DNA of 64,000 bases. Source: Lacibacter sediminis (GTDB lineage Bacteria > Bacteroidota > Bacteroidia > Chitinophagales > Chitinophagaceae). Within the stretch, counting starts at the first letter, position 1; every line of letters begins with the position of its first letter. The DNA lies in assembly GCF_014168535.1 (NCBI RefSeq), contig NZ_CP060007.1:372001-436000 (forward strand). The letters are read 5' to 3'. Below the pieces are notes generated by a model, which saw only the letters and a list, made by a program, of their open reading frames with translations, was not told the origin of the DNA and made no database searches. This document shows, piece by piece, positions 10,895-22,926 of this stretch. The position numbers and the translations under genes are program-made.

Positions 10895-10931
10895 AATTTT
10901 TAGTTCGTGGTTCCTCGAACTGCTTTTGGAG

Positions 10932-11375
10932 TTAAATCAATTTTTCAAACGAACGAATACTATGTACAACAACCCCCCACACTTTAAAATCACTAAACTC
11001 TGCCAGGTTCACCGGTTTGTATCTTGTATTCTCCGGTATTAAAAACGCTGATGAGAAATTTTTATGAAACCGTCGCACTAGCAATTCACCATTCAACACG
11101 GCTACAATAATTTTTCCATTCACCAGTTTCAACGAGCGATCTACAATTAAAATATCACCATCAAAAATGCCCGCCTGCTGCATGGCATCGCCTTTCATTT
11201 TAAAAAAGAACGTAGCTGGTTTGTTTTTAATGAGCTGTTCATTTAAATCAATACCACGTTCAGCATAATCATCGGCTGCTGCGCCAAAGCCCGTTGCGTT
11301 GGCTGTTTTTACCTGCTGTTGTGTAAACTGTTTGCTGCCTTTGTACGCAGCGCCAAAAAAATCTTCCCCATCCAT
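10932..11375 (-). CDS. umuD: UmuD-like S24-fold protein lacking the Ser-Lys dyad
   Basis: This 147-residue protein aligns by eye with UmuD over its whole length: GFGAAADDYAERGIDLNEQL around the cleavage-site region (a Thr28-Gly29 bond at the usual position), then KGDAMQQAGIFDGDILIVDRS and GELLVRRF. In active UmuD/LexA proteins the GDSM Ser is the nucleophile and the Lys of the VKK segment is the general base. Here the codons give Ala64 (gcc) and Arg101 (cga), so both catalytic residues are replaced. The fold and the DGDILIVD core are intact. It sits directly upstream of umuC, so a structural role as a non-cleaving polymerase partner is likely. Another protease processing it cannot be excluded. 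Confidence 0.85.
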   Translation of the reverse strand: MDGEDFFGAAYKGSKQFTQQQVKTANATGFGAAADDYAERGIDLNEQLIKNKPATFFFKMKGDAMQQAGIFDGDILIVDRSLKLVNGKIIVAVLNGELLVRRFHKNFSSAFLIPENTRYKPVNLAEFSDFKVWGVVVHSIRSFEKLI

Positions 11376-11453
11376 AAAAAATAATTTAACTCCCGCAGTG
11401 CAAAGAGTGGTGATAAAAAAATATGTCTGGGCTTGTAAGAAAGTTTGGTAAAG

Positions 11454-11466
11454 CTAAAACTTTTAG
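11454..11466. promoter_or_regulatory. Possible operator: inverted repeat CTAAAA-C-TTTTAG
   Basis: A perfect 6-bp inverted repeat around one base lies in the gap between the divergent umuD-like gene and the 2H phosphoesterase-like gene, 79 nt from the umuD start. The position suits a repressor site controlling either gene. It does not match a LexA box known to me, and AT-rich palindromes of this size occur by chance. Confidence 0.3.
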
Positions 11467-11591
11467 TAATTTAGTAGTGCGCTTTCAGGAAATATTTTTT
11501 TGAAACCTTTACTTCAGCAAACCCCCATCACAACAGTTCAATGATGCAACTGTTGCGCAGCATTTTATTAATCACAACTAAACGATGGGTC

Positions 11592-12215
11592 ATGCAATTA
11601 CAATCAATCACAACAACAACCATTCCCGGTTACAGGGTGTACGAATACCTGCTGGTACTAAGTCCGCATGAAGAATTATGGAATCGTATTTTAAAAGTGA
11701 AAACAGAATTTTCAGAAAAATACAAGTGTGATCATGCAAAGTGGGGCAAGCCACATATTACACTTGCCAATTTTCTGCAGTACGAATTAATGGAAGAACG
11801 GTTGGTGAATCGCCTCAACATGATCGCTATGGGCTTTCATCCTATAAAAGTGGAGCTGCGAGATTATGGAAGTTTTCCAAGTCACAGCATTTACATCAAC
11901 GTGGTGAGTAAGTTGCCGATACAATCATTGGTGAAAACAATTCGTACCGATGCACAACGACTCATGAAACTTAATGATGAAAACAAGCCACATTTTATTT
12001 TGGAACCAACTATTGCCATTGCACGCAAGCTGCAACCCTGGCAATACGAAAAAGGTTGGCTTGAATATTCGCACAAACATTTCACCGGACGTTTTATTGC
12101 CGATGGAATGTTGTTGTTAAAGCGACCACTTCATGAAAAAGCTTACCAGATCGTTCGAAGGCTTTCATTTCAAAATCTTGCTGTTACAACAAAGCAGGGA
12201 GAATTATTTGGGTAA
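11592..12215 (+). CDS. 2'-5' RNA ligase / 2H phosphoesterase superfamily protein
   Basis: About 207 residues from the ATG at 11592; an upstream in-frame ATG at 11541 would add a non-conserved 17-residue leader. The first 2H motif is clear, in KPHITLANF (His-Ile-Thr). The second is expected in the PHxTIARKL-like block, but here it reads EPTIAIARKLQPWQYEKGW, so the second His appears replaced by Thr. Family members act on 2'-5' or 2',3'-cyclic phosphate RNA ends, or on nucleotide cyclic phosphates. Loss of one motif would weaken catalysis. It is followed by the radical SAM gene. Confidence 0.75.
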   Translation: MQLQSITTTTIPGYRVYEYLLVLSPHEELWNRILKVKTEFSEKYKCDHAKWGKPHITLANFLQYELMEERLVNRLNMIAMGFHPIKVELRDYGSFPSHSIYINVVSKLPIQSLVKTIRTDAQRLMKLNDENKPHFILEPTIAIARKLQPWQYEKGWLEYSHKHFTGRFIADGMLLLKRPLHEKAYQIVRRLSFQNLAVTTKQGELFG

Positions 12216-13955: not shown

Positions 13956-13988
13956 GTTGGCAACATCAAAAAAATAAATTCATCTTTG
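13956..13988 (+). promoter_or_regulatory. Bacteroidota-type promoter candidate for the island
   Basis: A TTG at 13957-13959 lies 21 nt before CATCTTTG (13981-13988), a one-mismatch version of the -7 box TAnnTTTG used by the Bacteroidota primary sigma factor. It would start RNA near 13994, about 23 nt before the first small ORF, and could drive the tRNA array if the following terminators are read through. Confidence 0.45.
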
Positions 13989-14016
13989 CACTCACAAAAA
14001 TTATAAACAACAAAAA

Positions 14017-14109
14017 ATGCTACGCATACAATCACATATCGAAACAGTGAATCAGTTTAGTCCCATGGGAGACTGTACTGTTTGCGGGGCAAATGCTGCT
14101 GTTGAATAA
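14017..14109 (+). CDS. Small ORF, 30 residues, with a CxxC motif
   Basis: The ORF is ATG to TAA and encodes a 30-residue peptide ending GDCTVCGANAAVE, so it contains a Cys-x-x-Cys pair. It is preceded by a plausible promoter and A-rich leader and followed 31 nt later by a strong terminator, so the transcript would be a small mRNA or sRNA of about 170 nt. No family is recognised. It could be a leader peptide, a zinc-knuckle-like micropeptide, or chance coding inside a small RNA. Confidence 0.35.
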   Translation: MLRIQSHIETVNQFSPMGDCTVCGANAAVE

Positions 14110-14138
14110 AGTTGAAGAAACGAATTCGCTATAACACA

Positions 14139-14167
14139 GGCCCCGCAAGAGATTGCGGGGTTTTTTG
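14139..14167 (+). terminator. Intrinsic terminator 1 of the island
   Basis: An 8-bp perfect stem, CCCCGCAA/TTGCGGGG (14141-14160), with a GAGA loop, followed by six T residues. Confidence 0.9.
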
Positions 14168-14246
14168 TTTTACAGTTTTTTGTTTGTAAACATAATGAAA
14201 GGCCGTTGCTATGAAATGAAAAACACTATTAAAAAACAATGAGTAA

Positions 14247-14402
14247 ATGATCAGAACAAGACAACAGTACATACGATTTAGTTTGAAACATGCATTACAA
14301 TCATTAATGCATAGTTGGTTACTGCAACCAAACAGGAATGGTATGCCCAATAGTTATGTACTTGATTTTATTCATAAGCGACCGGATTGTATTCCTACAT
14401 AA
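14247..14402 (+). CDS. Possible small ORF, 51 residues
   Basis: An ATG-to-TAA frame encoding a basic peptide (starts MIRTRQQYIRFSLKHALQ). It sits between two intrinsic terminators, the second starting 24 nt after its stop. It has no recognised family and no clear translation signal, so it may simply mark a small RNA unit. Confidence 0.2.
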   Translation: MIRTRQQYIRFSLKHALQSLMHSWLLQPNRNGMPNSYVLDFIHKRPDCIPT

Positions 14403-14425
14403 ACAATTATGTAGTAGATGAGCAA

Positions 14426-14457
14426 AGCCCGGTCGTAAAAAACGACCGGGCTTTTTT
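14426..14457 (+). terminator. Intrinsic terminator 2 of the island
   Basis: An 11-bp perfect stem, AGCCCGGTCGT/ACGACCGGGCT (14426-14452), with an A5 loop and a run of six T residues after it. Confidence 0.92.
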
Positions 14458-14480
14458 GTTCGATGAAAAAGGAGGATGAA

Positions 14481-14618
14481 ATGCAACTGATTGTAATTGT
14501 GTTGATCGTTCGTTTGCTCTTGCAACTGATCAGCAACAAAAATGAGGAAGAGAAAAATAACAATGATGTAGATGTGCAGGAGAATGTAATGCATCCTGCA
14601 GCACATCCATTGCGATGA
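14481..14618 (+). CDS. Small membrane peptide ORF with a strong Shine-Dalgarno
   Basis: 45 residues from the ATG at 14481: a hydrophobic segment (about residues 2-17, rich in Leu/Ile/Val) followed by a charged, Asn/Glu-rich tail. AAGGAGG at 14469-14475 lies 5 nt before this ATG, which is why I prefer it to the in-frame ATG at 14463. Such a strong Shine-Dalgarno is unusual in Bacteroidota, where the anti-SD of the ribosome is normally masked. No family is recognised; it resembles single-pass micropeptides. A terminator follows. Confidence 0.35.
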   Translation: MQLIVIVLIVRLLLQLISNKNEEEKNNNDVDVQENVMHPAAHPLR

Positions 14619-14647
14619 TATTATAGTGCAGAGGAGGGAAATAAGCG

Positions 14648-14676
14648 TACCCCGTGAGATGCAACGGGGCGCTTTT
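14648..14676 (+). terminator. Weak intrinsic terminator 3, just before the tRNA array
   Basis: The stem CCCCGT/ACGGGG (14650-14669), with loop GAGATGCA, is followed by only GC-TTTT. It is the third hairpin terminator in about 540 nt and could act as a partial stop controlling read-through into the array. Confidence 0.6.
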
Positions 14677-14688
14677 CCAAATCAAAAC

Positions 14689-14760
14689 ATAGCAGCATTC
14701 CAATTGGTTGGATACTCCGCCTGGAACGGAGAGGCTACAGGTTCGAGTCCTGTCTGCTAT
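14689..14760 (+). tRNA. tRNA-Pro(UGG)-like, with C33
   Basis: Acceptor ATAGCAG/CTGCTAT, D arm TTCC/GGA, anticodon stem CTCCG/CGGAG, T arm ACAGG-TTCGAGT-CCTGT all pair. The 7-nt loop is CCTGGAA, giving anticodon TGG but C instead of the near-universal U at position 33. CCA is not encoded. It is the first member of the array. Confidence 0.75.
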
Positions 14761-14771
14761 ACAGAATTTGA

Positions 14772-14970
14772 AACCCTGTAGCTTAAAAGGAAAAGCTGCG
14801 GTAAAAGTTTTAACGAAGCCGTGAAGTGTATGGAAGATGTCGTCAATACAAATCGTTTTGATGAATAGAATTTGCAGTTGCACCGAAATGTTTTTACAAA
14901 GTAGGGAAGCGCATTTACAGCCATACTGTTCTTGAAAAGGAAAATGTCGGTTCGAGTCCGATCGGGGTTG
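14772..14970 (+). ncRNA. Bipartite tRNA-like element with a ~120-nt insertion
   Basis: The 5' part gives acceptor AACCCTG and D arm GCTT/AAGC (14781-14796). The 3' part, about 150 nt later, gives T arm GTCGG-TTCGAGT-CCGAT and acceptor CGGGGTT, which pairs fully with the 5' strand (one GU). The anticodon arm is not standard: GCGGT/GCCGT (14798-14802, 14818-14822) closes a 15-nt loop. About 120 further bases then replace the variable loop, including TTC-TTGAAAA-GGAA near 14929-14942, which resembles a Phe (GAA) anticodon arm. It may be an interrupted tRNA or a dedicated tRNA-like RNA; it is too small for a group I or II intron. Confidence 0.55.
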
Positions 14971-14975
14971 CAAAT

Positions 14976-15048
14976 TATTGAGTGGTGCAATGGCTTAGCA
15001 TATCAGTCTTTGACACTGATGATGATAGTTCGAATCTATCCTCAATAG
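14976..15048 (+). tRNA. tRNA-Gln(UUG)
   Basis: Acceptor TATTGAG/CTCAATA, D arm GTGC/GCAT, anticodon stem TCAGT/ACTGA with loop CTTTGAC (anticodon TTG), T arm GATAG-TTCGAAT-CTATC, discriminator G. It is well formed and starts 5 nt after the previous element. Confidence 0.9.
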
Positions 15049-15053
15049 CAAAT

Positions 15054-15126
15054 GTTGTCTTTAGCTTATTTGGTAAAGCATCCGTCTGTGCAACGGAAGA
15101 ACAGGGTTCGAGTCCCGGAGTCAACC
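15054..15126 (+). tRNA. tRNA-His(GUG)
   Basis: Anticodon stem TCCGT/ACGGA with loop CTGTGCA gives anticodon GTG. The D arm is GCTT/AAGC and the T loop TTCGAGT. The acceptor GTTGTCT/AGTCAAC has one mismatch and the T stem one mismatch. A G that could serve as the His-specific extra base is present, but its register is ambiguous. Confidence 0.8.
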
Positions 15127-15128
15127 AA

Positions 15129-15222
15129 TACGGTTTGGTGTAATGGTAACATGATCATCTCCCTCTTTTTCTAAGAGGAAAGTAGCAGGTGAATGTATTC
15201 AGTTCGAATCTGAAAGCCGTAC
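15129..15222 (+). tRNA. tRNA-Glu(UUC)-like with an extended two-tier anticodon arm
   Basis: Acceptor TACGGTT/AGCCGTA, D arm GTGT/ACAT and T arm TTCAG-TTCGAAT-CTGAA are good. Between them an outer helix TCATC/GGTGA (15155-15159, 15188-15192) encloses 28 nt. Those 28 nt contain a second perfect hairpin, CCTCT-TTTTCTA-AGAGG (15162-15178), whose 7-nt loop has U33 and anticodon TTC. The outer helix is identical to the anticodon stem of the Val tRNA in this array. The total is 94 nt. It could be a tRNA with a 21-nt insertion, or a functional extended-arm tRNA-like RNA. Confidence 0.6.
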
Positions 15223-15226
15223 AAAT

Positions 15227-15299
15227 TGACTTATAGTTCAATGGATGAGAATACTGCGCTACGAACGCAGAGATACAAGTTCGACTCTTGTTAAGTCAA
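15227..15299 (+). tRNA. tRNA-Arg(ACG)
   Basis: Acceptor TGACTTA/TAAGTCA, D arm GTTC/GAAT, anticodon stem CTGCG/CGCAG with loop CTACGAA (anticodon ACG), T arm ACAAG-TTCGACT-CTTGT, discriminator A. Position 1 is T rather than the usual G. Confidence 0.88.
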
Positions 15300-15307
15300 C
15301 AACAGAT

Positions 15308-15378
15308 TGTGGTTTAGAGTAACGGTAACTCGAAGGTCTCATAAGCCTTAGTTGCAGGTTCGAATCCTGCAGCCGCAA
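15308..15378 (+). tRNA. tRNA with CAU anticodon (elongator Met or Ile2)
   Basis: Acceptor TGTGGTT/AGCCGCA, D arm GAGT/ACTC, anticodon stem AAGGT/GCCTT with loop CTCATAA (anticodon CAT), T arm GCAGG-TTCGAAT-CCTGC. The three G-C pairs of an initiator anticodon stem are absent, so it is not tRNA-fMet. The variable loop has only four bases. Confidence 0.82.
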
Positions 15379-15385
15379 CAATCAT

Positions 15386-15458
15386 TGACCCATAGCTTAA
15401 CAGTTAGAGCAGGAACCTTATACGTTCAAGGTTATCAGTTCAAATCTGATTGGGTCAA
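15386..15458 (+). tRNA. tRNA-Ile(UAU)-like
   Basis: Acceptor TGACCCA/TGGGTCA, D arm GCTT/GAGC, T arm ATCAG-TTCAAAT-CTGAT. In standard spacing the anticodon stem is GGAAC/GTTCA (one G-A mismatch) with loop CTTATAC, anticodon TAT. A competing hairpin AACCTT/AAGGTT (15415-15420, 15427-15432) would destroy that loop. UAU-reading Ile tRNAs are rare in bacteria, which normally use lysidine-modified CAU. Confidence 0.65.
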
Positions 15459-15466
15459 CAAAATAA

Positions 15467-15541
15467 GATGACTTAGCTCAATTGGTTGAGAGCATTACCC
15501 TGATACGGTAAGGGTTGAAAGTTCGAGTCTTTCAGTCATCA
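15467..15541 (+). tRNA. tRNA-Ile(GAU)
   Basis: Acceptor GATGACT/AGTCATC, D arm GCTC/GAGC, anticodon stem TTACC/GGTAA with loop CTGATAC (anticodon GAT), T arm GAAAG-TTCGAGT-CTTTC. All arms are canonical. Confidence 0.92.
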
Positions 15542-15548
15542 CAAAAAA

Positions 15549-15620
15549 TGCGACTTAATTCAATGGAAGAAGATCATCGTTACAAGGTGATAGTTGAAAG
15601 TTCGAATCTTTCAGTCGCAA
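15549..15620 (+). tRNA. tRNA-Val(UAC)
   Basis: Acceptor TGCGACT/AGTCGCA, anticodon stem TCATC/GGTGA with loop GTTACAA (anticodon TAC), T arm GAAAG-TTCGAAT-CTTTC. The D stem ATTC/GAAG is weak. Its T arm is identical to that of the neighbouring Asn tRNA. Confidence 0.85.
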
Positions 15621-15625
15621 CAAAA

Positions 15626-15700
15626 TGGCTCGTAGCTCAACTGGACAGATGTTCCCGGCTTTTAACCGGGAGGTTGTGAGTTCGAATCTCACCGGGCCAA
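15626..15700 (+). tRNA. tRNA-Lys(UUU), degenerate D stem
   Basis: Acceptor TGGCTCG/CGGGCCA, anticodon stem CCCGG/CCGGG with loop CTTTTAA (anticodon TTT), T arm GTGAG-TTCGAAT-CTCAC. The D stem pairs at only two positions (GCTC against GATG). Confidence 0.82.
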
Positions 15701-15704
15701 CAAT

Positions 15705-15776
15705 GGATGAATAGCTTAACGGCAGAGCAGCGGTTTGTTAGACCGTTGGTTGAAAGTTCGAATCTTTCTTCATCCT
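15705..15776 (+). tRNA. tRNA-Asn(GUU)
   Basis: Acceptor GGATGAA/TTCATCC, D arm GCTT/GAGC, anticodon stem GCGGT/ACCGT with loop TTGTTAG (anticodon GTT), T arm GAAAG-TTCGAAT-CTTTC, discriminator T. Its acceptor 5' strand is the same as that of the Ile element at 18799. Confidence 0.9.
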
Positions 15777-15783
15777 CATAATC

Positions 15784-15870
15784 GGAGAGTTGACAGAGTG
15801 GTAATGTGCCGGCCTGCTAAGCTTGGGCTATCGTTCATTCGGTACAAAGGTTCGATTCCTTTACTCTCCG
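15784..15870 (+). tRNA. tRNA-Ser(GCU)
   Basis: Class II tRNA with a long variable arm. Acceptor GGAGAGT/ACTCTCC, short D stem ACA/TGT, anticodon loop CTGCTAA (anticodon GCT) on an imperfect stem CCGGC/GCTTG, T arm AAAGG-TTCGATT-CCTTT, discriminator G as in bacterial tRNA-Ser. Confidence 0.85.
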
Positions 15871-15879
15871 CAATTGTTT

Positions 15880-15934
15880 GGAACAGTGTAGTTCGATGAT
15901 GAGGAAATAAGATATCAGTCAGTAACTGTAACAA
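15880..15934 (+). ncRNA. T-armless tRNA-like fragment
   Basis: Between the Ser and Phe genes, ACAGT and ACTGT can close an element containing a D-arm-like segment (AGTTCGATGATGAGGAA, compare the Arg D arm). No T arm is present. It may be a decayed tRNA or a spacer. Confidence 0.3.
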
Positions 15935-15940
15935 ACAACT

Positions 15941-16013
15941 GGAGCTTTGGCAGAATGGATATATGCACCGGAGTGAAATCCCGGACATCGTGGTTCAATT
16001 CCACGGGGCACCG
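15941..16013 (+). tRNA. tRNA-Phe(GAA)
   Basis: Acceptor GGAGCTT/GGGCACC (one mismatch), short D stem GCA/TGC, anticodon stem CCGGA/CCCGG (one mismatch) with loop GTGAAAT (anticodon GAA), T arm CGTGG-TTCAATT-CCACG. It is the last member of the array, 110 nt before the next gene. Confidence 0.78.
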
Positions 16014-16123
16014 CATAAAAATTTAAAAAAGTAAAAAATGAAAAGGAATTCAAGGTTCATAATGAAAGAGGGAGCAAAGATGCCTGTGCATCAATTTTTT
16101 CGATCGGAACAAATAAAATCATT

Positions 16124-16891
16124 ATGGACACAAAACTTATTCGGCAATATGGAGAAGATATTCTCTGTTATCGCCATCGTGCTGCAAGAAAAAAGAAACG
16201 CATGCAGTATGAAGATTTTGATAAACAACTAATTCATTTACACAAAGAGGAACGACAATTATCAAAACAAAAAAGAAATCTTGGATGGGAAGCGTTGACG
16301 CCCCCTATACAAAGAGGATGGAAACGTTTTTTTGTTTTAAGGGAAGATGTTGCAAGAAGCAAGCATAAAGTTTTTTTCGAAAATATTCTTCAAAAAATCA
16401 ATACATATGATTTCAGTTGGAGAAAAGATTTTAAACAAAAGAAACGAATAAGAGGGCGCAAAATTTATGTAGTTAAGCCACAGAGCTTACTAAAATTATC
16501 TGAGCTTGATCTTGTTAAACTTGAATTTAATGAACTAGAGAAGCAGTTTTTTTATGAAGCATGGGAAACTGACTGTAGAGGCTTATTCGTAAAAAGGTTT
16601 GTATTTAAAGAGCCTTGGCGTTTTGTTCTCCGGGTTAAGCCAAACATGGTTGATAAAGTAAGAAAACGGGATAATTTAATTGAAGCAAGATTACAGGAGA
16701 TAGATGACTATCTCAGTAAAAATCGCTTTACTGGTCGATTAAATAAAATATTGCATGGTAGCGATGGGAATAGCTGGCTAAAGTTTTATGAGAAAGAAAA
16801 AGAGAAATATCGGTTTAAAAACAAGTCATTAAATCAGATTTTGAATTTAATAAACGAACAACAATGGAACAGCGGCAATGGAGAAAATTGA
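16124..16891 (+). CDS. Very basic protein of unknown function, probable RNA binder
   Basis: 255 residues, strikingly rich in Lys and Arg (for example RAARKKKR near residue 19, and FKQKKRIRGRKIYVVKPQ around residue 102). Only a few hydrophobic stretches are seen and there is no signal or membrane segment. I do not recognise a named family; the EPWRFVLRVKP block (about residues 166-176) looks conserved-protein-like. The 3' end overlaps the YkuK-like gene by 28 nt, so the two are translationally coupled. The charge and position right after the tRNA array suggest an RNA-binding partner (inference). It is more AT-rich than its neighbours. An overlapping 64-residue frame from 16038 is probably not the gene, although its ATG has the better A-rich leader. 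Confidence 0.7.
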   Translation: MDTKLIRQYGEDILCYRHRAARKKKRMQYEDFDKQLIHLHKEERQLSKQKRNLGWEALTPPIQRGWKRFFVLREDVARSKHKVFFENILQKINTYDFSWRKDFKQKKRIRGRKIYVVKPQSLLKLSELDLVKLEFNELEKQFFYEAWETDCRGLFVKRFVFKEPWRFVLRVKPNMVDKVRKRDNLIEARLQEIDDYLSKNRFTGRLNKILHGSDGNSWLKFYEKEKEKYRFKNKSLNQILNLINEQQWNSGNGEN

Positions 16892-17346
16892 ACGGAGAAA
16901 AAATTCGGCGGCCTATTGAGGACGAAGTAAGAGCTGTGTTGGTACGTGAAAAAGAAATGGGACACCAATTAAAAGTGTGCATTGGTACCGATAGCCAGGT
17001 GAAAGGAAAGGAAACTGAATTTGGAACCGTGATCGTTTTTATCCGCAAAGGAAAAGGTGGGTTCATGTACATCCACAATGAAACAACAAAACAAAAAATG
17101 AACATTAAGCAACGGATGTTAACGGAAGTTGCCATGAGCATTGATGTGGCGTATGGATTGTGCAGGTTGTTTACGTTGTACAATGTAGATATGGAAGTGC
17201 ATGCCGATATTAACACTAACCCTTCTTTTAAAAGCAATGATGCGTTGAAAGAAGCAATGGGTTATATCATGGGGATGGGCTTTGCTTTCAAAGCAAAACC
17301 TGAAGCCTTTGCAAGCAGTAACTGTGCAAATAAAGTGGTGCAATAA
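16864..17346 (+). CDS. YkuK/DUF458-type RNase H-fold protein
   Basis: This 160-residue protein matches the YkuK (DUF458) family of predicted ribonuclease H-like proteins. VCIGTDSQV (about residues 38-46) supplies the first acidic residue of the RNase H fold, VHADINTNP (112-120) the second, and the ending SSNCANKVV is family-typical. The biochemical role is unproven; by fold it could cut or bind structured RNA or RNA-DNA hybrids. It overlaps the upstream basic protein gene and is followed 25 nt later by the AAA ATPase gene, forming an operon directly downstream of the tRNA array. Confidence 0.8.
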   Translation: MEQRQWRKLNGEKIRRPIEDEVRAVLVREKEMGHQLKVCIGTDSQVKGKETEFGTVIVFIRKGKGGFMYIHNETTKQKMNIKQRMLTEVAMSIDVAYGLCRLFTLYNVDMEVHADINTNPSFKSNDALKEAMGYIMGMGFAFKAKPEAFASSNCANKVVQ

Positions 17347-17371
17347 TTAAGTAAAAAATAAAAGAGATTAT

Positions 17372-18523
17372 ATGGAACTATATATAACAATAATGTTGTT
17401 GATCTGGATCTTGATAGGAGTATGTCCTCCTGTTGCTGTGTGGATCAGCAGAAAACTAAGGCAGTTATCAGAAAAAAGAACAGCCGGAATTTTTGAACAT
17501 CATTACCTCGAAGCAAAATCATTTTACATGTACAGGTTTAAAACAATTCCCTGTACAACTTATGTAGATGAAATTGATATCAACAAGGCATTTGAATACC
17601 TGGATAAAAACTCAAAAGACATAACGGAAGATATTTACCAGGCATGTTATTATGATTGGACACAAAGCAAACAGGTTTTTAGTAAAACACTTTTTGTTTT
17701 GAAGAATAGAGTGATGGTGGAGCTGATGAATGACTATGCCAGGATTTTGTATCCGAATTACAGGTATAGTGAAGCAGACAACCTGGTAAATATTTTCAGC
17801 GCTTATAAACTTCCTCAAAAACAGGAAGCTTATGAAATCAACATCATCACGCTTTCAAGAGATGGATTAGAGTTAAAGCAGGTAGAAATTAAACCAACGC
17901 TTCTTGATATCGGGATGTATTATAACGATGATTTTAAAGAAGTGGATGAAACGATCAAAGCCAGGCTGAATAGGGAAAGTGATAAAGGGATTATCCTTTT
18001 GCATGGTTTGCCCGGCACTGGTAAAACAACTTACTTACGTCACTTAATTGGCGGACTGAAAAAGAAAGTATTGTTTGTTTCACCATCGGTTGCAGGAAAT
18101 TTAATGAATCCTGAGTTTATTGATTTGCTGATCGAGAATCCAAATTCGGTCTTGATCATTGAAGATGCTGAGAATATTATGATGGACAGGAAATATAACA
18201 GTGATTCATCTGTATCGAACCTGTTGAATTTAAGTGATGGGTTGATGAGTGATTGTTTAAGTGTTCAGATCATTTGCACATTCAACAGCTCAGTGAACCT
18301 GATCGACTCAGCATTAATGCGCAAAGGTCGTTTGATCGCAAAATATGAGTTTGGTAAACTCGGAGTTGAAAAAGCAAATCGGCTATCAAAGCATCTGGGG
18401 TTCGATGTAAACATCGATCAACCAATGACCATTGCAGAGATTGCTAACCCAACCGAAAAAACACAACCGGTCGAAAGAACGGAAGTGATCGGTTTCAGGC
18501 GACAGGTTGAATTAATGAATTAA
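17372..18523 (+). CDS. Membrane-anchored BCS1-like AAA ATPase
   Basis: 383 residues. An N-terminal transmembrane segment (about 4-24) is followed by a BCS1-like N-domain and one AAA module: Walker A GLPGTGKT (212-219), Walker B SVLIIED (259-265), sensor 1 in IICTFN (300-305), and arginine fingers in LMRKGR (315-320). Mitochondrial BCS1 translocates a folded protein through a membrane, and bacterial homologues occur in conflict-related operons. Here it follows the YkuK-like gene and precedes the second tRNA-like locus. It could remodel or extract the SPFH/RNA complex at the membrane (inference). Confidence 0.88.
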   Translation: MELYITIMLLIWILIGVCPPVAVWISRKLRQLSEKRTAGIFEHHYLEAKSFYMYRFKTIPCTTYVDEIDINKAFEYLDKNSKDITEDIYQACYYDWTQSKQVFSKTLFVLKNRVMVELMNDYARILYPNYRYSEADNLVNIFSAYKLPQKQEAYEINIITLSRDGLELKQVEIKPTLLDIGMYYNDDFKEVDETIKARLNRESDKGIILLHGLPGTGKTTYLRHLIGGLKKKVLFVSPSVAGNLMNPEFIDLLIENPNSVLIIEDAENIMMDRKYNSDSSVSNLLNLSDGLMSDCLSVQIICTFNSSVNLIDSALMRKGRLIAKYEFGKLGVEKANRLSKHLGFDVNIDQPMTIAEIANPTEKTQPVERTEVIGFRRQVELMN

Positions 18524-18534
18524 GAATAATTTTC

Positions 18535-18560
18535 CTTACTCCCCTTTAGGGGATGGGGGC
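18535..18560 (+). repeat. C-tract/G-tract intergenic hairpin element
   Basis: CCCCT-TT-AGGGG (18541-18552) followed by GATGGGGG. A similar C-rich/G-rich element lies after the Wzc gene (41245-41278). These are common in Bacteroidota intergenic DNA and may act as weak terminators. The G-run here also contributes to possible acceptor pairing of the next element. Confidence 0.5.
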
Positions 18561-18690
18561 AAGAGCTTGCTTAACGGCAAGACAGGTATATGCAAATTGA
18601 CAGCGAACCAGATCTATGTTTCAAAGAAGCAGGATAGTGCGGCGGTAGTAACCTGCTGTATGCTGTTGTTGCAGTTATGCTATGCCTGCC
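18553..18690 (+). ncRNA. Structured segment 5' of the second tRNA-like locus
   Basis: There is a D-arm-like hairpin CTTG-loop-CAAG (18566-18581, loop CTTAACGG). Next comes a long-range helix CAGGTATA/TATGCCTG (18583-18590, 18681-18688, one GU) enclosing about 90 nt with an inner hairpin GCAGG/CCTGC (18629-18633, 18652-18656). Its G-run (553-559) could also pair, with one mismatch, with the acceptor strand TCCCGGT at 18723-18729. That gives a normal-order tRNA-like fold competing with the permuted one described next. Confidence 0.4.
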
Positions 18691-18695
18691 AATAC

Positions 18696-18763
18696 GCTGA
18701 AGGACGAAGGTTCGAATCCTTCTCCCGGTAACACGGGGTAACTCAAGTGGCTAGAGTGTCGGC
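18696..18763 (+). ncRNA. Permuted-order tRNA-like unit 1
   Basis: The order is 3' half then 5' half. GCTGA (696-700), variable AGGAC, T arm GAAGG-TTCGAAT-CCTTC (706-722), acceptor 3' strand TCCCGGT plus A (723-730). Immediately after come acceptor 5' strand ACACGGGG (731-738), TA, D arm ACTC-AAGTGGCTA-GAGT (741-757), G, and TCGGC (759-763). TCGGC pairs fully with the upstream GCTGA (one GU), and CGGGG pairs with TCCCG, extendable to 7 bp with one bulged A. Only joining the two outer ends would give a cloverleaf, as in permuted tRNA genes. The anticodon is not determinable; CTCAAAC at 763-769 resembles a Leu(CAA) loop. Array decay by deletion is the alternative. Confidence 0.5.
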
Positions 18764-18771
18764 TCAAACGT

Positions 18772-18840
18772 ACCGGTTCGAATCCGGTTTCATCTCAAGG
18801 ATGAATAGTTCAATGGTAGAACACTACACTGATAATGTAG
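18772..18840 (+). ncRNA. Permuted-order tRNA-like unit 2, Ile(GAU) anticodon
   Basis: T arm ACCGG-TTCGAAT-CCGGT (772-788) and acceptor 3' strand TTCATCT plus C (789-796) are followed after AA by the acceptor 5' strand GGATGAA (799-805). The two strands pair over 7 bp (one GU). Then come TA, D arm GTTC-AATGGTA-GAAC (808-822), A, and a perfect anticodon arm CTACA-CTGATAA-TGTAG (824-840) reading Ile. No T arm follows the anticodon arm, so the only available partner is the one upstream. The break would lie in the variable loop. Confidence 0.55.
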
Positions 18841-19130
18841 CAAACGAAGTACAGCGCTTCTCAAATGCTGACCAGACAAATAAAGCCGGGTGAATGACCG
18901 GCAGTAACAATGAACGAGTCGTTAGCGACAAGATCATTCGCACTGCAATCAGGTAATTACCCGAAAGTAAACAAAGAAGTATTGTAACAGCAGTTGCTTC
19001 ATCATTCAGAATTGATGATACAAGTATTGTCAACAGGCGTTTGATGAACCCGGTGCAGCAGCAATACAGATTATTTGCTTCCGTAAGAACAGGATGATCA
19101 AACAACCGGCTTTATTCTTTTTAAAAAATC
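18841..19130 (+). ncRNA. Structured non-coding region upstream of the SPFH gene
   Basis: No convincing ORF is seen. Successive hairpins are CAGC/GCTG (852-855, 867-870), GCCGG/CCGGC (885-889, 898-902), a nested one AATGA-GTCG-TTAG-CGAC-TCATT (909-938), GGTAATTACC (952-961), and TCATCA/TGATGA (18999-19004, 19013-19018). The density suggests a structured RNA or long 5' leader of the SPFH gene; continuity with the tRNA-like units is likely because no terminator separates them. Confidence 0.45.
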
Positions 19131-19171
19131 TGTGCCTTGCATGCAATGCGCAACAAAACAAATAAAATGAT

Positions 19172-20269
19172 ATGAAACGTGTAAAAGTAAATGCCTACCA
19201 GGTGGCATTGGTATTTAAAGATGGCGTGTATAAGTACATGCTGAAAGAAGGTAAGTATTGGTTGTGGAACAAAGAAGTGTATGTGTACGATGTAACCAGG
19301 CCATTTGTTGCGCCAATTGAACTGAACATTCTGTTGCAGGATGCTGATCTGGCAAATGCATTGCAGGTTGTGGAAGTAAAGGATAACGAAATTGTGTTGA
19401 TGTATGAGAATGGTTTGCTGAAGCAGGTACTTAATGCAGGTCGTTATACCTACTGGAAAAGTGCTATTGAATATGTATTTGTAAAGGCCGACATGGGCAA
19501 AGTGGAGATCGATGAAAACATTGATCGTGTTGTATTGCAAAACCGTTTGCTGGTTCCATATGTGCGTAGCTACAGCGTGGAGAACTACGAAGAAGCTTTG
19601 CTGTTTGTAGATGGTAAATTCCAAAAGCGTTTGCAAAGCGGTATGTACTACTGGTGGAAGAACAATATTGCCGTACATGTAGGTAAAGCAGATAAACGTT
19701 TGCAGCAACTGGAGATCAACGGGCAGGAAATTCTTACTAAAGACAAAGCGGCTTTGCGTTTGAATGCTTGGGCACAATACAAAGTTGCTGATATTGAAAA
19801 AGCACTGTTGCAAAACAAGGAGTACGATAAACAATTGTACGTGGCATTTCAATTGGCCCTGCGTGAATACATTGCTGCTTATGGCTTCGATGAATTGCTG
19901 GAGAAAAAAGAAGCCCTTGCACCTTTTGTATTGGAGGCAGTGAAAGAAAAAGCTGCTGCCTTGGGTGTTGAAGTAATTGGTTTTGGTATCCGTGACATTA
20001 TCCTGCCGGGTGATGTAAAAGAGATCATGAACCAGGTGCTCATCGCCGAAAAGAAAGCGCAGGCCAACAGCATTATGCGTCGTGAAGAAACTGCCAGCAC
20101 CCGTAGCTTGCTCAACACTGCCAAGCTGATGGAAGAAAATGCGATGTTGTGGAAACTGAAAGAAATGGAATATGTAGAAAAGATCGCAGACAAGATCAGC
20201 AACATCAGTGTAAGTGGTAACGGTGTGTTGATTGAACAGTTGAAACAGATTTTCGTACCGCAGAAATAA
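19172..20269 (+). CDS. SPFH/Band-7 (slipin-like) protein
   Basis: This 365-residue protein lacks the N-terminal membrane hairpin of classic slipins. Two N-terminal repeats of a small beta module (EGKYWLWNKEVYVYD and AGRYTYWKSAIEYVF) precede the SPFH domain (about 130-290, with the family segments ALRLNAWAQYKVADI, ALREYIAAYGFDELL and GFGIRDIILPGDVKEIMNQV). A helical, Lys/Glu/Ala-rich C-terminus likely oligomerises. SPFH proteins build ring or cage scaffolds. SPFH modules have been reported next to RtcB with cognate tRNA-like RNAs, so this protein is probably the scaffold for the RNAs encoded just upstream (inference from context). Confidence 0.85.
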   Translation: MKRVKVNAYQVALVFKDGVYKYMLKEGKYWLWNKEVYVYDVTRPFVAPIELNILLQDADLANALQVVEVKDNEIVLMYENGLLKQVLNAGRYTYWKSAIEYVFVKADMGKVEIDENIDRVVLQNRLLVPYVRSYSVENYEEALLFVDGKFQKRLQSGMYYWWKNNIAVHVGKADKRLQQLEINGQEILTKDKAALRLNAWAQYKVADIEKALLQNKEYDKQLYVAFQLALREYIAAYGFDELLEKKEALAPFVLEAVKEKAAALGVEVIGFGIRDIILPGDVKEIMNQVLIAEKKAQANSIMRREETASTRSLLNTAKLMEENAMLWKLKEMEYVEKIADKISNISVSGNGVLIEQLKQIFVPQK

Positions 20270-20326
20270 AATGGTAAGTAGTGGTGAGCGATGATTATTT
20301 TGTTGTCGCCGCCACTGCTGCTATTA

Positions 20327-20366
20327 AGCTTCGGTTGCGTGGCACACTTGTACGGTTGGTAACTTT
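20327..20366 (+). repeat. Short dispersed intergenic element, copy 2
   Basis: TTCGGTTGCGTGGCACACTT and the following bases match the element at 12239 with several substitutions. It lies in the 121-nt gap between the SPFH gene and the next gene. Confidence 0.3.
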
Positions 20367-20390
20367 ATTGAGTAAATCAGTAACATACAC

Positions 20391-21377
20391 ATGACACTTT
20401 TGGAAAAATATCAGGAAAATCACCCCGATTTGAATGAGAGGCTTGAAAGAATTGACGAGAAATCAAGAAAGAAATTCATTAAAAAGCTAAAAAGAGAGAA
20501 GGATAAAAGCAATTTTATTGCAATAGTCACAGAGTTACAGTGCTATGAATTCTTTTTTAACTCTGGGTTTAAAGTGGAATTTGAAAGAGGTTATTCCGTG
20601 GGAAGCAAAAGGTTAACCCCTGATTTTACCATTTCTAAAAATGGACAAGATGCGATTGTAGAAGTTGTAAGGTTAAATCCGACTGAGAAAGATAGTAAGA
20701 GAAATAATTTCGAATCGTTGCTTATGGAAGGAATCGAGGAATTGAAGAAAAAGTGTGTGATCAAAATAGATTTCATAAATGAGTATTTCGATGAGGACTT
20801 GTATGATATAAAAAGCATTGTGAACGATTTAGAGATATGGCTTGAACAAAGCTTCTATCTTAACTCTAAAATAACCTTATGCGATAATTTTCGATTTGAG
20901 ATTATCGATATTAATGATATTTACGACCATGCTTGCGTATATGGAAATTTTAATAGCATCGACATAGATCCAAGAAGATTAAAATCTGACAAGAGTTTGT
21001 TTGTATCTAAACTGGAAAAATACGACGAACTGATTCAACACTATAATCTGCCATATGTAGTATTTATTAAAATTGACTTTCATGCTGGAATAAATGAAAA
21101 CGAGATGTTTTGGACAATGTATGGTGACTCACTGCTTTATGATCATCTCAATAAACGAGAGTCTGCTTTAAATGGACTTTTTTATGCAAATAAAATAGGA
21201 AAGGAGAATGTTAGTGGTGTTCTATTAATAGTTGGAAGTAAGGCTTCTTATTATAAAAACTTTTATTTTTTGAATAAGTTAAGCAAGGAAATAGATGATG
21301 AATTCGGCAAGATGCAATTTTTTAGTGACGTTCCTAACAAGTTTGTTTATTTAAGGGGAGTAAGAAAGAACGGTTAA
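20391..21377 (+). CDS. Unknown protein, possibly PD-(D/E)xK nuclease-like
   Basis: 328 residues with no signal or membrane segment and markedly AT-rich codons compared with the flanking genes. Residues 43-95 resemble a restriction endonuclease-like core: a helix with Glu49 (TELQCYEFF), then TPDFTI (Asp78), and after 12 residues AIVEVVRL (Glu91). The third catalytic position is Val93 instead of Lys, so activity is doubtful. The rest is unrecognised. It is inserted between the SPFH and RtcB genes, 12 nt before rtcB, as if it were variable cargo; the base composition suggests separate acquisition. Confidence 0.6.
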   Translation: MTLLEKYQENHPDLNERLERIDEKSRKKFIKKLKREKDKSNFIAIVTELQCYEFFFNSGFKVEFERGYSVGSKRLTPDFTISKNGQDAIVEVVRLNPTEKDSKRNNFESLLMEGIEELKKKCVIKIDFINEYFDEDLYDIKSIVNDLEIWLEQSFYLNSKITLCDNFRFEIIDINDIYDHACVYGNFNSIDIDPRRLKSDKSLFVSKLEKYDELIQHYNLPYVVFIKIDFHAGINENEMFWTMYGDSLLYDHLNKRESALNGLFYANKIGKENVSGVLLIVGSKASYYKNFYFLNKLSKEIDDEFGKMQFFSDVPNKFVYLRGVRKNG

Positions 21378-21389
21378 ATTTTTAAAACA

Positions 21390-22835
21390 ATGAGCAAGTT
21401 AAAAATATCAGGAAAAGAATTGAGAGCGATTGGCTACCCGGAAGGACCGGTGATCAGCGTCGCCATGAATGTGATGCAAAAAAATTACAAGCATCACACA
21501 AAGGAGGAAGTTATGGAACTGTTGAAAGCAGTGTTGGCATCGCCTGCAAATTATTTAGATGATGCCGTGCTGGCATTGATCGCAAAACAATTGATGCCGG
21601 AAGAAAAGGAAAGTGAAGGAGAGTTGTCGTTGAATCAAAACGGTATTCAATTCAATGTTTTCGGAAGTGAACATATTGAACAAAGTGCTATGCACCAGAT
21701 GTACACTGCAGCAAAATTACCCGTAGCAGTAGCCGGTGCCTTAATGCCCGATGCACATCATGGATATGGATTACCGATCGGAGGCGTGTTGGCAACGGAG
21801 AATGCAGTAATACCTTATGGTGTTGGTGTGGATATTGGTTGCAGAATGTGTTTGAGCATTTTTGATATCGATCCGAAAGACCTGGTGCAGAAAGAAGCAT
21901 TCTTTGCTAGAGAAATTGGTGAAGCTACTTTGTTTGGAAGTGGCGCACAGTTCAAGCAAAGCGAAGACCATGAAGTAATGGATAACGAATTGTTTTTTGA
22001 ATTGCCGTTGCTGAAAAATCTGCACGGTCGTGCATGGAAACAATTAGGCAGCAGCGGAAGCGGAAATCACTTTGTTGAATTTGGTGTAGTGGAAATTGCA
22101 GAGAAAGATGAAGTGCTGGGTGTGGAAGCAGGCAAGTATGTCGGACTGTTGAGTCACTCCGGTTCAAGAGCGTTGGGTGCAAATATCGCTAACCATTATA
22201 CCAAACTTGCGATCAGTAAAAGACGTTTACCACAGGATGCAAAAAATCTTGCGTGGTTAACACTTGATGAAGAAGAAGGAATGGAGTATTGGTTAGCGAT
22301 GAACCTGGCTGGTGATTATGCAAGTGCCTGTCACCATGTGATTCATCAAAAGATTGCGAAGCAACTTGGTCGAAAACCAATAAAGCGTGTAGAGAACCAT
22401 CACAACTTTGCATGGAAAGAAAAGTGGGAAGGAAGAGATGTGATCGTTCACCGTAAAGGTGCAACACCTGCCGGTAAAGATGTACTGGGTATCATTCCGG
22501 GAAGTATGACAGCCGCAGGCTTTATAGTAAAAGGTAAGGGTGAAATGGCATCGGTGAATTCTGCTTCACATGGAGCCGGACGTTTGATGAGTCGTTCAAG
22601 AGCCATGCAAAGCGTTACGCACAAAGCATTGAAAGATGAATTGAAAAAGCATGGCGTGAAATTAATGGGCGGCGGATTAGATGAAGCACCTTTTGCTTAC
22701 AAGGATATTGAACTAGTGATGCAGAGTCAGCAATCGTTAGTTGATGTTGTTGGAAAATTTACACCTAAGATCGTGAAGATGGATGGACCGAGTATAAAGC
22801 CTTGGCAGAAGACGAGGGAAGTGGAAGGGGAGTGA
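21390..22835 (+). CDS. rtcB: RNA ligase RtcB
   Basis: This 481-residue protein carries the RtcB metal and guanylylation residues. MPDAHHGYGLPIGG (120-132) and VDIGCRM (147-153) supply the Asp148/Cys151 metal ligands, GSGNHFVE (223-230) and LSHSGSR (254-260) supply metal histidines, and SASHGAGRLMSR (391-402) supplies His394, the residue guanylylated by GTP. RtcB joins RNA 3'-phosphate or 2',3'-cyclic phosphate ends to 5'-OH ends, as in tRNA splicing and in repair of tRNAs cut by anticodon nucleases. No archease or RtcA is seen nearby. Its place at the end of an island full of tRNA-like genes gives it obvious substrates. Confidence 0.95.
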   Translation: MSKLKISGKELRAIGYPEGPVISVAMNVMQKNYKHHTKEEVMELLKAVLASPANYLDDAVLALIAKQLMPEEKESEGELSLNQNGIQFNVFGSEHIEQSAMHQMYTAAKLPVAVAGALMPDAHHGYGLPIGGVLATENAVIPYGVGVDIGCRMCLSIFDIDPKDLVQKEAFFAREIGEATLFGSGAQFKQSEDHEVMDNELFFELPLLKNLHGRAWKQLGSSGSGNHFVEFGVVEIAEKDEVLGVEAGKYVGLLSHSGSRALGANIANHYTKLAISKRRLPQDAKNLAWLTLDEEEGMEYWLAMNLAGDYASACHHVIHQKIAKQLGRKPIKRVENHHNFAWKEKWEGRDVIVHRKGATPAGKDVLGIIPGSMTAAGFIVKGKGEMASVNSASHGAGRLMSRSRAMQSVTHKALKDELKKHGVKLMGGGLDEAPFAYKDIELVMQSQQSLVDVVGKFTPKIVKMDGPSIKPWQKTREVEGE

Positions 22836-22891
22836 AGTCGAAGGCGAATGGTGAATAGTCAATTGTTAATAGGCAACAGCAAATAGGTTTC

Positions 22892-22926
22892 AACTCCTGT
22901 TGCAGAAATGCGGCAGGAGTTTTTTA
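22892..22926 (+). terminator. Intrinsic terminator closing the RNA island
   Basis: A 12-bp stem AACTCCTGTTGC/GCGGCAGGAGTT (two GU pairs) with a 6-nt loop, followed by five further T residues. It lies between the convergent rtcB and anti-sigma genes. Confidence 0.88.

Follow-up and report, generated by a model that had tools for sequence, protein, structure and literature searches.

An accessory tRNA array, a tRNA-mimic RNA and RtcB around an SPFH gene in Lacibacter sediminis: a predicted translation-rescue and RNA-repair island

Why would a bacterium keep a dozen additional tRNA genes, and a structured RNA resembling tRNA, beside genes for an SPFH protein and the RNA ligase RtcB? We pursued this question in a stretch of 64,000 nucleotides (nt) from Lacibacter sediminis (hereafter the window; positions 372001-436000 of its single-contig 5.12 Mb genome, NZ_CP060007.1), and all positions below are window coordinates. 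Every gene of the island in question, for the tRNAs, the RNA and six proteins, lies on the + strand. The gene content, RNA structure, tRNA identity, leader layout and co-occurrence observed here lead us to lean, with modest conviction, toward a stall-inducible translation-rescue and RNA-repair kit that would act when the cell's own tRNAs are damaged.

The tRNA array

The first group of RNA genes, block 1, comprised the following features.

14689..16013, + strand: block 1 tRNA array (Pro, Gln, His, Arg, Met, Ile(UAU), Ile(GAU), Val, Lys, Asn, Ser, Phe)
~14772-14970 and 15129-15222, + strand: two aberrant elements within block 1, recognized by inspection

A first-pass annotation, made from the letters of the window alone, had counted about 12 tRNA genes and at least five tRNA-like elements in two blocks. 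Of 13 tRNAs that passed the Rfam cut-off, 12 belong to block 1 (14689-16013) and the other, a partial one, to block 2 (18805-18861); ARAGORN called 11 tRNA genes (14976-16014). The count of genes thus stood, alongside two aberrant elements, and the second block proved to be one conserved RNA. The genome as a whole held 49 Rfam tRNAs, 13 in the island and 36 elsewhere, and a family member without this SPFH (G017) had 40 in total.

The array tRNAs appeared equipped for decoding. Specifically, in 426 array tRNAs from 77 loci (a handful of these tRNAs being from doubled contigs), the discriminator base matched the amino acid in 364, against a mean of 194 and a maximum of 222 in 2000 label shuffles (L092 and L097 were left out of this count; L066/L097, L163/L193 and L150/L246 are, judging by length, the same contigs and were partly retained in other counts). 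Expected discriminators were textbook values, with A or G accepted for Arg and Glu; array Gln is scored as a miss by this rule, yet A73 was present in 30/36 copies, the same A73 as in the genome's own housekeeping Gln. All seven acceptor pairs formed in 394/426 and U33 was present in 412/426, such that the features of decoding competence (cloverleaf, U33, amino-acid-specific discriminator) were found together. Moreover, 322 of the 426 read split codon boxes, versus 12/25 distinct tRNAs from the housekeeping sets fetched, and Ile(UAU) occurred 27 times in arrays and in none of these housekeeping sets.

These data bear on whether the tRNAs are substitutes or bait, roles that the first-pass annotation had offered, together with that of substrates, without choosing among them. 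As decoys, they would attract anticodon nucleases and be recycled by RtcB, which accords with their retained anticodons, with acceptors that differ from the housekeeping ones, and with the suggestion, in the accessible part of PMC7790460, that YrlA, itself uncut by an SOS anticodon nuclease, is a competitive inhibitor. Bait needs no amino-acid identity, however, and the discriminator was nonetheless kept, as were the acceptor pairs and U33. We consider the decoy explanation improbable, pure decoys being disfavored by the discriminator fit; because aminoacylation identity is retained, substitutes are favored over decoys, and the tRNAs may also be substrates.

The acceptor stems also spoke to the history of the array. 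Identity was 0.69 between arrays and 0.36 between arrays and housekeeping isoacceptors, falling to 0.29 within the L. sediminis genome (11 comparisons), whereas housekeeping acceptors compared between different genomes were 0.80-0.91 identical. Acceptors that are alike among arrays and almost unrelated to those of the housekeeping genes point to an old accessory tRNA set, inherited apart from the housekeeping tRNAs. Additionally, the anticodon loop outside the anticodon differed from the own-genome housekeeping copy in 255/322 array tRNAs, including all His (38) and all Gln-UUG (32) copies and no Tyr copy (0/18), with housekeeping loops 0.98-0.99 identical across three genomes.

We rejected the idea that neighboring array genes form permuted pairs, in which the acceptor 3′ strand of one pairs with the 5′ strand of the next (own pairs 6.91/7 versus neighbor 3.18). 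Of the aberrant elements, 14772-14970 is tRNA-like, with paired acceptor ends, a T-arm and about 110 extra bases in its middle; two other loci (L061 and L062) have an ordinary tRNA-Asp at its position, and it may represent an intron-like insertion or decay. The element at 15129-15222 is tRNA-Glu-like, with anticodon TTC and an abnormally long variable region, and was kept in L061, L062, L064, L067 and L068.

The structured RNA ahead of the SPFH gene

Block 2 lies upstream of the SPFH gene and has the following parts.

18612..18870, + strand: block 2 structured tRNA-mimic RNA (alignment, covariation, covariance model)
from 18612 and from 18636, + strand: hairpins
18697-18763, + strand: permuted module 1
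18772-18840, + strand: module 2
18846-18870, + strand: H-type pseudoknot

T-arm motifs preceded SPFH in 94/95 loci, including those without an ARAGORN array, at a density of 582 in 548 kb versus 31 in 2.48 Mb elsewhere. Two such motifs, 50-75 nt apart and 280-460 nt ahead of the SPFH gene, were detectable in 59 of the 95 loci, and 45 of these 59 were used for a structure alignment, in which RNAalifold found 38/46 pairs compensated. Completed by hand and then counted, the final structure had 95.1% of cells paired and 48/59 pairs changed on both sides, with covariation of 0.529 versus 0.197 in shuffled and at most 0.130 in slid alignments, values biased in favor of the structure, which was derived from the same alignment used for its scoring. 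Module 1 runs through the anticodon-stem 3′ strand, variable loop, T-arm, loop-closed acceptor, D-arm and anticodon-stem 5′ strand, a circularly permuted tRNA order without a free 3′ end for charging. Module 2 consists of T-arm, loop-closed acceptor, D-arm and anticodon hairpin, and is followed on its 3′ side by the H-type pseudoknot, the helices of which were 89.5% and 82.2% paired. By this covariation, block 2 is best described as one structured RNA upstream of SPFH in nearly every homologous locus, and since its structure and position are both conserved, we rejected the possibility that it consists of decayed tRNAs. In the window, the anticodon-arm hairpin of module 2 (18824-18840) is identical over 17 nt to that of the genome's own tRNA-Ile(GAU); other loci have other loop sequences.

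To what is this RNA related? From 42 of the 45 aligned loci we built a covariance model (R1) that spans the hairpin and module 1. It scored at least 40 bits in 51 of 53 SPFH loci outside the model (exceptions L169, 29.8, and L197, 18.4) and no more than 32.6 bits in the 21 RtcB stretches searched that have no SPFH. At E<=0.001, some match was found in 223/296 genomes of the phylum, mostly weak. Among the 30 loci listed for neighbor counts, 10 were beside SPFH, 8 beside Ro60/TROVE, 2 beside RtcB only and 10 in tandem ordinary tRNA genes. The 10 SPFH-linked matches, the window's own among them, lay directly upstream of SPFH. Ro60 was assigned by Pfam in L212, L215, L217, L219 and L229 and by a 27% tblastn match in L213, while L220 and L221 were counted as near copies of L219 without a scan of their own; one of the RtcB-only loci (L224) carries YrlA RNAs above Rfam's own cut-off. 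Weak R1 matches (about 20-35 bits, some to 50, e.g., L211) were often tandem tRNA genes and were excluded from the RNA family. In Enterobacteria, Clostridia and Burkholderia records R1 reached at most 23.2 bits, which does not demonstrate the RNA there; Burkholderia and Subdoligranulum records had T-arm motifs upstream of the SPFH match, with R1 weak.

YrlA RNAs have their arms in altered order and bind a ring protein by a basal stem. Block 2 likewise departs from the usual order of T, acceptor and D arms, and its acceptor is without a free end, as indicated by covariation of helices 4-7. The Rfam YrlA-type family RF02553, with a gathering score of 69 bits, was not reached in the 20 loci scanned (window RNA 27.7; best SPFH-linked RNA 47.4, in L208), and no Ro60/TROVE protein is next to the window RNA, SPFH standing there instead among the island proteins identified by Pfam. 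As described in the accessible part of PMC8394870, YrlA has a tRNA-like part reminiscent of D, T and acceptor arms, and its complex with Ro60 binds PNPase. Because a model trained only on SPFH loci also finds Y RNAs, SPFH and Ro60 appear to be alternative neighbors, and perhaps partners, of one RNA design, and block 2 appears to be a tRNA mimic of the YrlA (Y RNA) type in which SPFH replaces Ro60.

This kinship raises an alternative, in which the SPFH oligomer and its mimic RNA would gate an exoribonuclease in the manner of Ro60-YrlA and PNPase, clearing damaged RNA, with the array as a secondary passenger. Consistent with RNA quality control of this kind, R1 also finds Ro60-linked RNAs, Ro60-YrlA directs PNPase to structured RNA (PMC8394870, accessible part), and one locus scanned has a 3′-5′ exonuclease-like cargo open reading frame (ORF). 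RtcB and the RNA-repair protein RlaP, considered below, indicate ligation instead, and it is hard to see what a charged-type tRNA array would do in decay, so we regard this alternative as unlikely.

The leader ahead of the array

What would turn the island on? Upstream of block 1 we identified the following features.

13957..13988, + strand: promoter candidate of the Bacteroidota type (TTG, 21 nt, CATCTTTG), read from the sequence
14017..14109, + strand: leader ORF 1, 30 codons (MLRIQSHIETVNQFSPMGDCTVCGANAAVE), with antiterminator strand 14081-14090
14138..14163, + strand: leader terminator 1, 11 pairs, of a class kept ahead of other arrays
14247..14402, + strand: leader ORF 2, 51 codons, with antiterminator strand 14378-14385
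14424..14454, + strand: leader terminator 2, 13 pairs, of a class kept ahead of other arrays
14481..14618, + strand: small hydrophobic ORF ending in HPAAHPLR, with a hairpin (14649-14670) after it

The promoter candidate was recognized by TTG/TAnnTTTG, which we take to be the Bacteroidota promoter consensus. The first-pass annotation had described a one-strand unit from a promoter candidate to a strong terminator; the single strand and the end terminator hold, but the unit is not unbroken, being interrupted by two leader terminators that, like the leader ORFs and antiterminator strands, were absent from that account. Specifically, each of the two short ORFs ahead of the array is followed by a strong terminator-like site (four such sites in the leader stretch, on both strands, versus 0.4 in shuffles), and near its end each has a strand complementary to the 5′ arm of its terminator. 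When forced, the antiterminator folded at -41.8 versus -43.6 kcal/mol and at -59.6 versus -66.0 kcal/mol at the two leader sites.

The arrangement recurred ahead of other arrays. In 60/73 loci a terminator was located no more than 420 nt ahead of the first ARAGORN tRNA (2% when shuffled), a count in which the window is a miss, its terminators being further upstream than 420 nt. Of 138 terminators, 115 had an ORF that ended 15-32 nt ahead of the stem (12% when shuffled), and a copy of at least 7 nt of the terminator 3′ arm was present in 38 of these 115 ORFs versus 1/338 controls. The first leader peptide, for which only lengths of 27-33 codons were considered, had 30 codons in 24/27 loci, and third codon positions of its ORF were the most variable, modestly so (0.487 versus 0.359 and 0.404). 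The elements of an attenuator, namely a leader ORF, a terminator and a competing antiterminator, were thus found in layout and in alternative pairing, and we predict attenuation by ribosome position, with a candidate attenuator conserved before arrays. Additionally, an ORF with a C-terminus like that of the HPAAHPLR ORF (14481-14618) was present in 11 other loci, and it is possibly a third leader peptide.

Partner genes, proposed mechanism and related systems

The protein genes of the island and its end are as follows.

16124..16891, + strand: basic protein, 255 amino acids (aa), without known family
16864..17346, + strand: YkuK-type RNase H-like protein (PF04308, E 3e-37)
17372..18523, + strand: AAA ATPase with hydrophobic N-terminus (PF00004, E 1e-11)
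19172..20269, + strand: SPFH protein with three tandem beta repeats and without an N-terminal membrane anchor (Band_7/SPFH PF01145, E 3e-29)
20391..21377, + strand: variable cargo protein, 328 aa, without Pfam family
21390..22835, + strand: RtcB RNA ligase (PF01139, E 8e-81)
22892..22921, + strand: terminator-like site, 13 pairs, end of the unit

We found RtcB in 31/59 relatives and mapped 31 RtcB-centered stretches. SPFH was beside RtcB in nine of these, and eight of the nine had at least two tRNAs upstream, the ninth having one. In contrast, none of 20 RtcB stretches without adjacent SPFH had two tRNAs upstream on the RtcB strand (Fisher p 2e-6), the 20 being 22 minus L069, whose contig breaks off in RtcB, and L091, in which RtcB is 30% identical and the array is downstream; dropping L073 and L089, which have little upstream sequence, would give 8/9 versus 0/18. 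One genome among the stretches without adjacent SPFH (G014, L087) has an SPFH gene further off. Viewed from SPFH, 80 loci were taken from 537 confirmed SPFH relatives, 60 with sufficient flank, and of these 51 had one or more tRNAs upstream of SPFH and on its strand, and 43 had two or more. Partners in the 60 were YkuK (45), RtcB (36), AAA (29) and the basic protein (13). The gene set proposed in the first-pass annotation to accompany tRNA arrays therefore recurs in part, with varying partners: SPFH plus tRNAs is the most frequent pairing and the remainder a mix, and the island is made of modules that can be separated and do not form a single obligate unit.

The same counts speak to whether the array is simply a passenger, tRNA genes having been collected by recombination outside the system. 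Extra tRNA clusters do occur in phages and plasmids, and some SPFH loci have no array. However, at least two minus-strand tRNAs were found anywhere in the locus in only 1/60, against the 43 with two on the SPFH strand upstream, the leader is shared, and no RtcB stretch of the 20 without SPFH has two tRNAs upstream. We hold the passenger explanation to be very improbable.

Between SPFH and RtcB, the cargo varied across 53 loci, with no ORF called in about a quarter. Ten cargo proteins were scanned by Pfam. In a cluster of 19 ORFs both members scanned were RlaP, annotated 'RNA repair pathway' (PF10127, best E 2e-69); there were also a DinB-type cluster, the exonuclease-like ORF mentioned above, one AbiV-type HEPN protein that passed the Pfam cut-off and one AbiU2-type match that did not. 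Moreover, records of E. coli and Citrobacter contain an SPFH homolog (36-37% identity over 96%) with an RlaP-like gene as its neighbor, and the Citrobacter homolog also adjoins rtcR. Together with the co-occurrence of SPFH, RtcB and tRNAs, the RlaP cargo gives good support to the RNA-repair and tRNA-maintenance function already suggested by the first-pass annotation. A defence island, in which the cargo would be a HEPN- or nuclease-like effector that cuts RNA on phage attack and the array plus RtcB would provide self-immunity or recovery, accords with these data in that cargo varies among loci, includes the AbiV-type HEPN and the AbiU2-type match and, in the window, weakly matches a PADLOC model. 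The loci without any ORF between SPFH and RtcB run against it, and no effector was recognized in the core by Pfam or PADLOC; we find this reading, like that of decoys, improbable.

Among the island proteins, the YkuK, SPFH and RtcB identities first proposed were borne out by their Pfam matches, as was the lack of a known family for the basic protein, which, like the 328-aa cargo, matched no Pfam family at E 0.1 and whose structure model (predicted local distance difference test, pLDDT, 84) matched no PDB fold at E 0.001. The cargo had been called PD-(D/E)xK-like, a weak assignment given no Pfam match and a PADLOC match to PD-T7-1 at E 3e-4, and it had no relative among the cargo ORFs of the 53 loci. 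For the ATPase, described as BCS1-like and membrane-bound, the likeness to BCS1 held for the AAA domain only, which matched the PDB profiles of AFG2 (E 1.8e-9) and BCS1 (E 1.2e-8), and the N-terminal hydrophobic stretch is real in the window protein but not general, occurring in 3/22 aligned homologs, the window's included. The SPFH protein matched a stomatin profile (E 8.5e-25); an N-terminal membrane anchor is typical of stomatins, and no hydrophobic stretch was found in the first 60 residues across 58 SPFH homologs. The N-terminal third of the SPFH model is scarcely probed by the VIA-align list. Its nearest named matches, among those listed, were mostly from Chitinophagaceae, and the phage collection yielded no SPFH match. 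RtcA cyclase and RtcR activator were not among the six proteins of the island. In one locus (L068 12226-13167, G010), the SPFH gene is split by a frameshift while array and RNA remain.

We propose that, in a healthy cell, ribosomes would complete the leader ORFs and cover the antiterminator strands, such that the leader terminators halt transcription before the array. If tRNAs are cut or translation stalls otherwise, a ribosome waiting in the leader would allow the antiterminator to form and the island to be induced. The array would then supply aminoacylation-competent tRNAs, mostly for split boxes and often with loops altered outside the anticodon, which would replace those lost to anticodon nucleases and protect the cell by escaping the same cut. 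An SPFH oligomer likely binds block-2 RNA in the way that Ro60 binds YrlA, and by analogy SPFH is plausible as a scaffold for tRNA-handling enzymes. Judging by its enzyme family, RtcB would reseal cleaved tRNAs as its substrates, and the YkuK-type protein and AAA may help to process or remodel tRNAs. In a more specific and doubtful version, SPFH would form a soluble vault-like cage with the permuted tRNA-mimic RNA, a bacterial vault-type ribonucleoprotein serving as a compartment for tRNA repair, while the attenuator reads the tRNA pool and releases nuclease-evading spare tRNAs. The architecture of the major vault protein itself is one of beta repeats, then an SPFH-like shoulder domain and a cap helix.

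Several observations weigh against the translation-rescue and repair reading. The housekeeping loop is retained by array Lys (27/37), Tyr (18/18) and most Gly. Anticodon stems are less alike than acceptors over all arrays (identity 0.53 versus 0.69), but their divergence beyond the acceptor is weak within a genus (66 pairs versus 41), and we dropped fast-evolving anticodon stems as a feature. In the leaders, 77 of the 115 ORF-terminator pairs have no exact copy of at least 7 nt, and the peptides are not enriched in split-box residues (0.542 versus 0.527 in the out-of-frame control), leaving enrichment in the array's amino acids unsupported; ribosomes may accordingly stall for want of certain tRNAs, or through a nascent peptide or an antibiotic. 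Proteins and array also occur in part independently, a pattern named in the first-pass annotation as counting against it, as 9/60 SPFH loci have no ARAGORN tRNA upstream, 24/60 have no RtcB found nearby, and in G265 a Ro60 gene with an R1-type RNA lies about 12 kb from YkuK and 15 tRNAs, with no SPFH on the stretches read. Finally, the loci are related, and the counts are not independent.

How does the island compare with known systems? Burroughs and Aravind reportedly predicted, in 2016, SPFH/Band-7 modules with an RtcB-type ligase, a 'novel tRNA-like molecule' and RlaP, and the link between SPFH and a tRNA-like RNA is to be credited to them. The Ro60 (Rsr)-YrlA-RtcBA operon, as far as the accessible parts of PMC7790460 and PMC8394870 describe it, similarly has a tRNA-mimic RNA with D, T and acceptor-like arms beside RtcB, and R1 finds it; the island differs in that SPFH replaces Ro60, in its second module and pseudoknot, in its tRNA array, and in having no RtcA or RtcR. 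In Anabaena without the repressor TrcR, rtcB is up 77-fold and a slipin gene 42-fold, and TrcR also represses a 26-tRNA operon (PMC10272220, accessible part). That regulon thus places extra tRNAs, rtcB and a slipin gene under one control that is on under translational stress, much as proposed here, whereas its genes are scattered and governed by a protein repressor and ours form one island with a predicted attenuator, a comparison by description and not homology. Phage tRNA sets are thought to evade anticodon nucleases and are likewise accessory with loop changes outside the anticodon (PMC10264068, in the part available), while the island is chromosomal and has repair genes. PaFlo8 in the Pseudomonas aeruginosa rtc locus is an SPFH gene among rtc genes, alike by locus only, and the term tRNA is absent from the available part of that text (PMC13086221), unlike the tRNA link of the island. 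The combination of parts seen here was not found in the titles and abstract openings of the open-access full-text literature searched, and we consider the island a new variant of RtcB/Y-RNA repair systems.

The locus brings together fields that are usually separate (tRNA mimics of the Y-RNA type, SPFH proteins, repair by RtcB and operons of extra tRNAs), provides a covariation-supported structure for an SPFH-linked RNA, and indicates a translation-reading attenuator as trigger. If our reading is correct, some bacteria would keep inducible spare tRNAs much like phages do, and the presence of SPFH genes in rtc loci would become testable.

Two variant arrangements and a neighboring region were also noted. 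Three loci without array and SPFH (L063, L065 and L073) have RtcB with a 146-179 aa AAA-like fragment upstream, which is a reduced form of the locus. The distant RtcB of L091 (30% identity) has nine tRNAs downstream and no SPFH on the stretch. Next door to the island, window 9539-12212 contains SOS-type genes, a UmuC-like polymerase (IMS) and an S24 peptidase, as well as a 2′-5′ RNA ligase-like phosphoesterase that could act on RNA ends.

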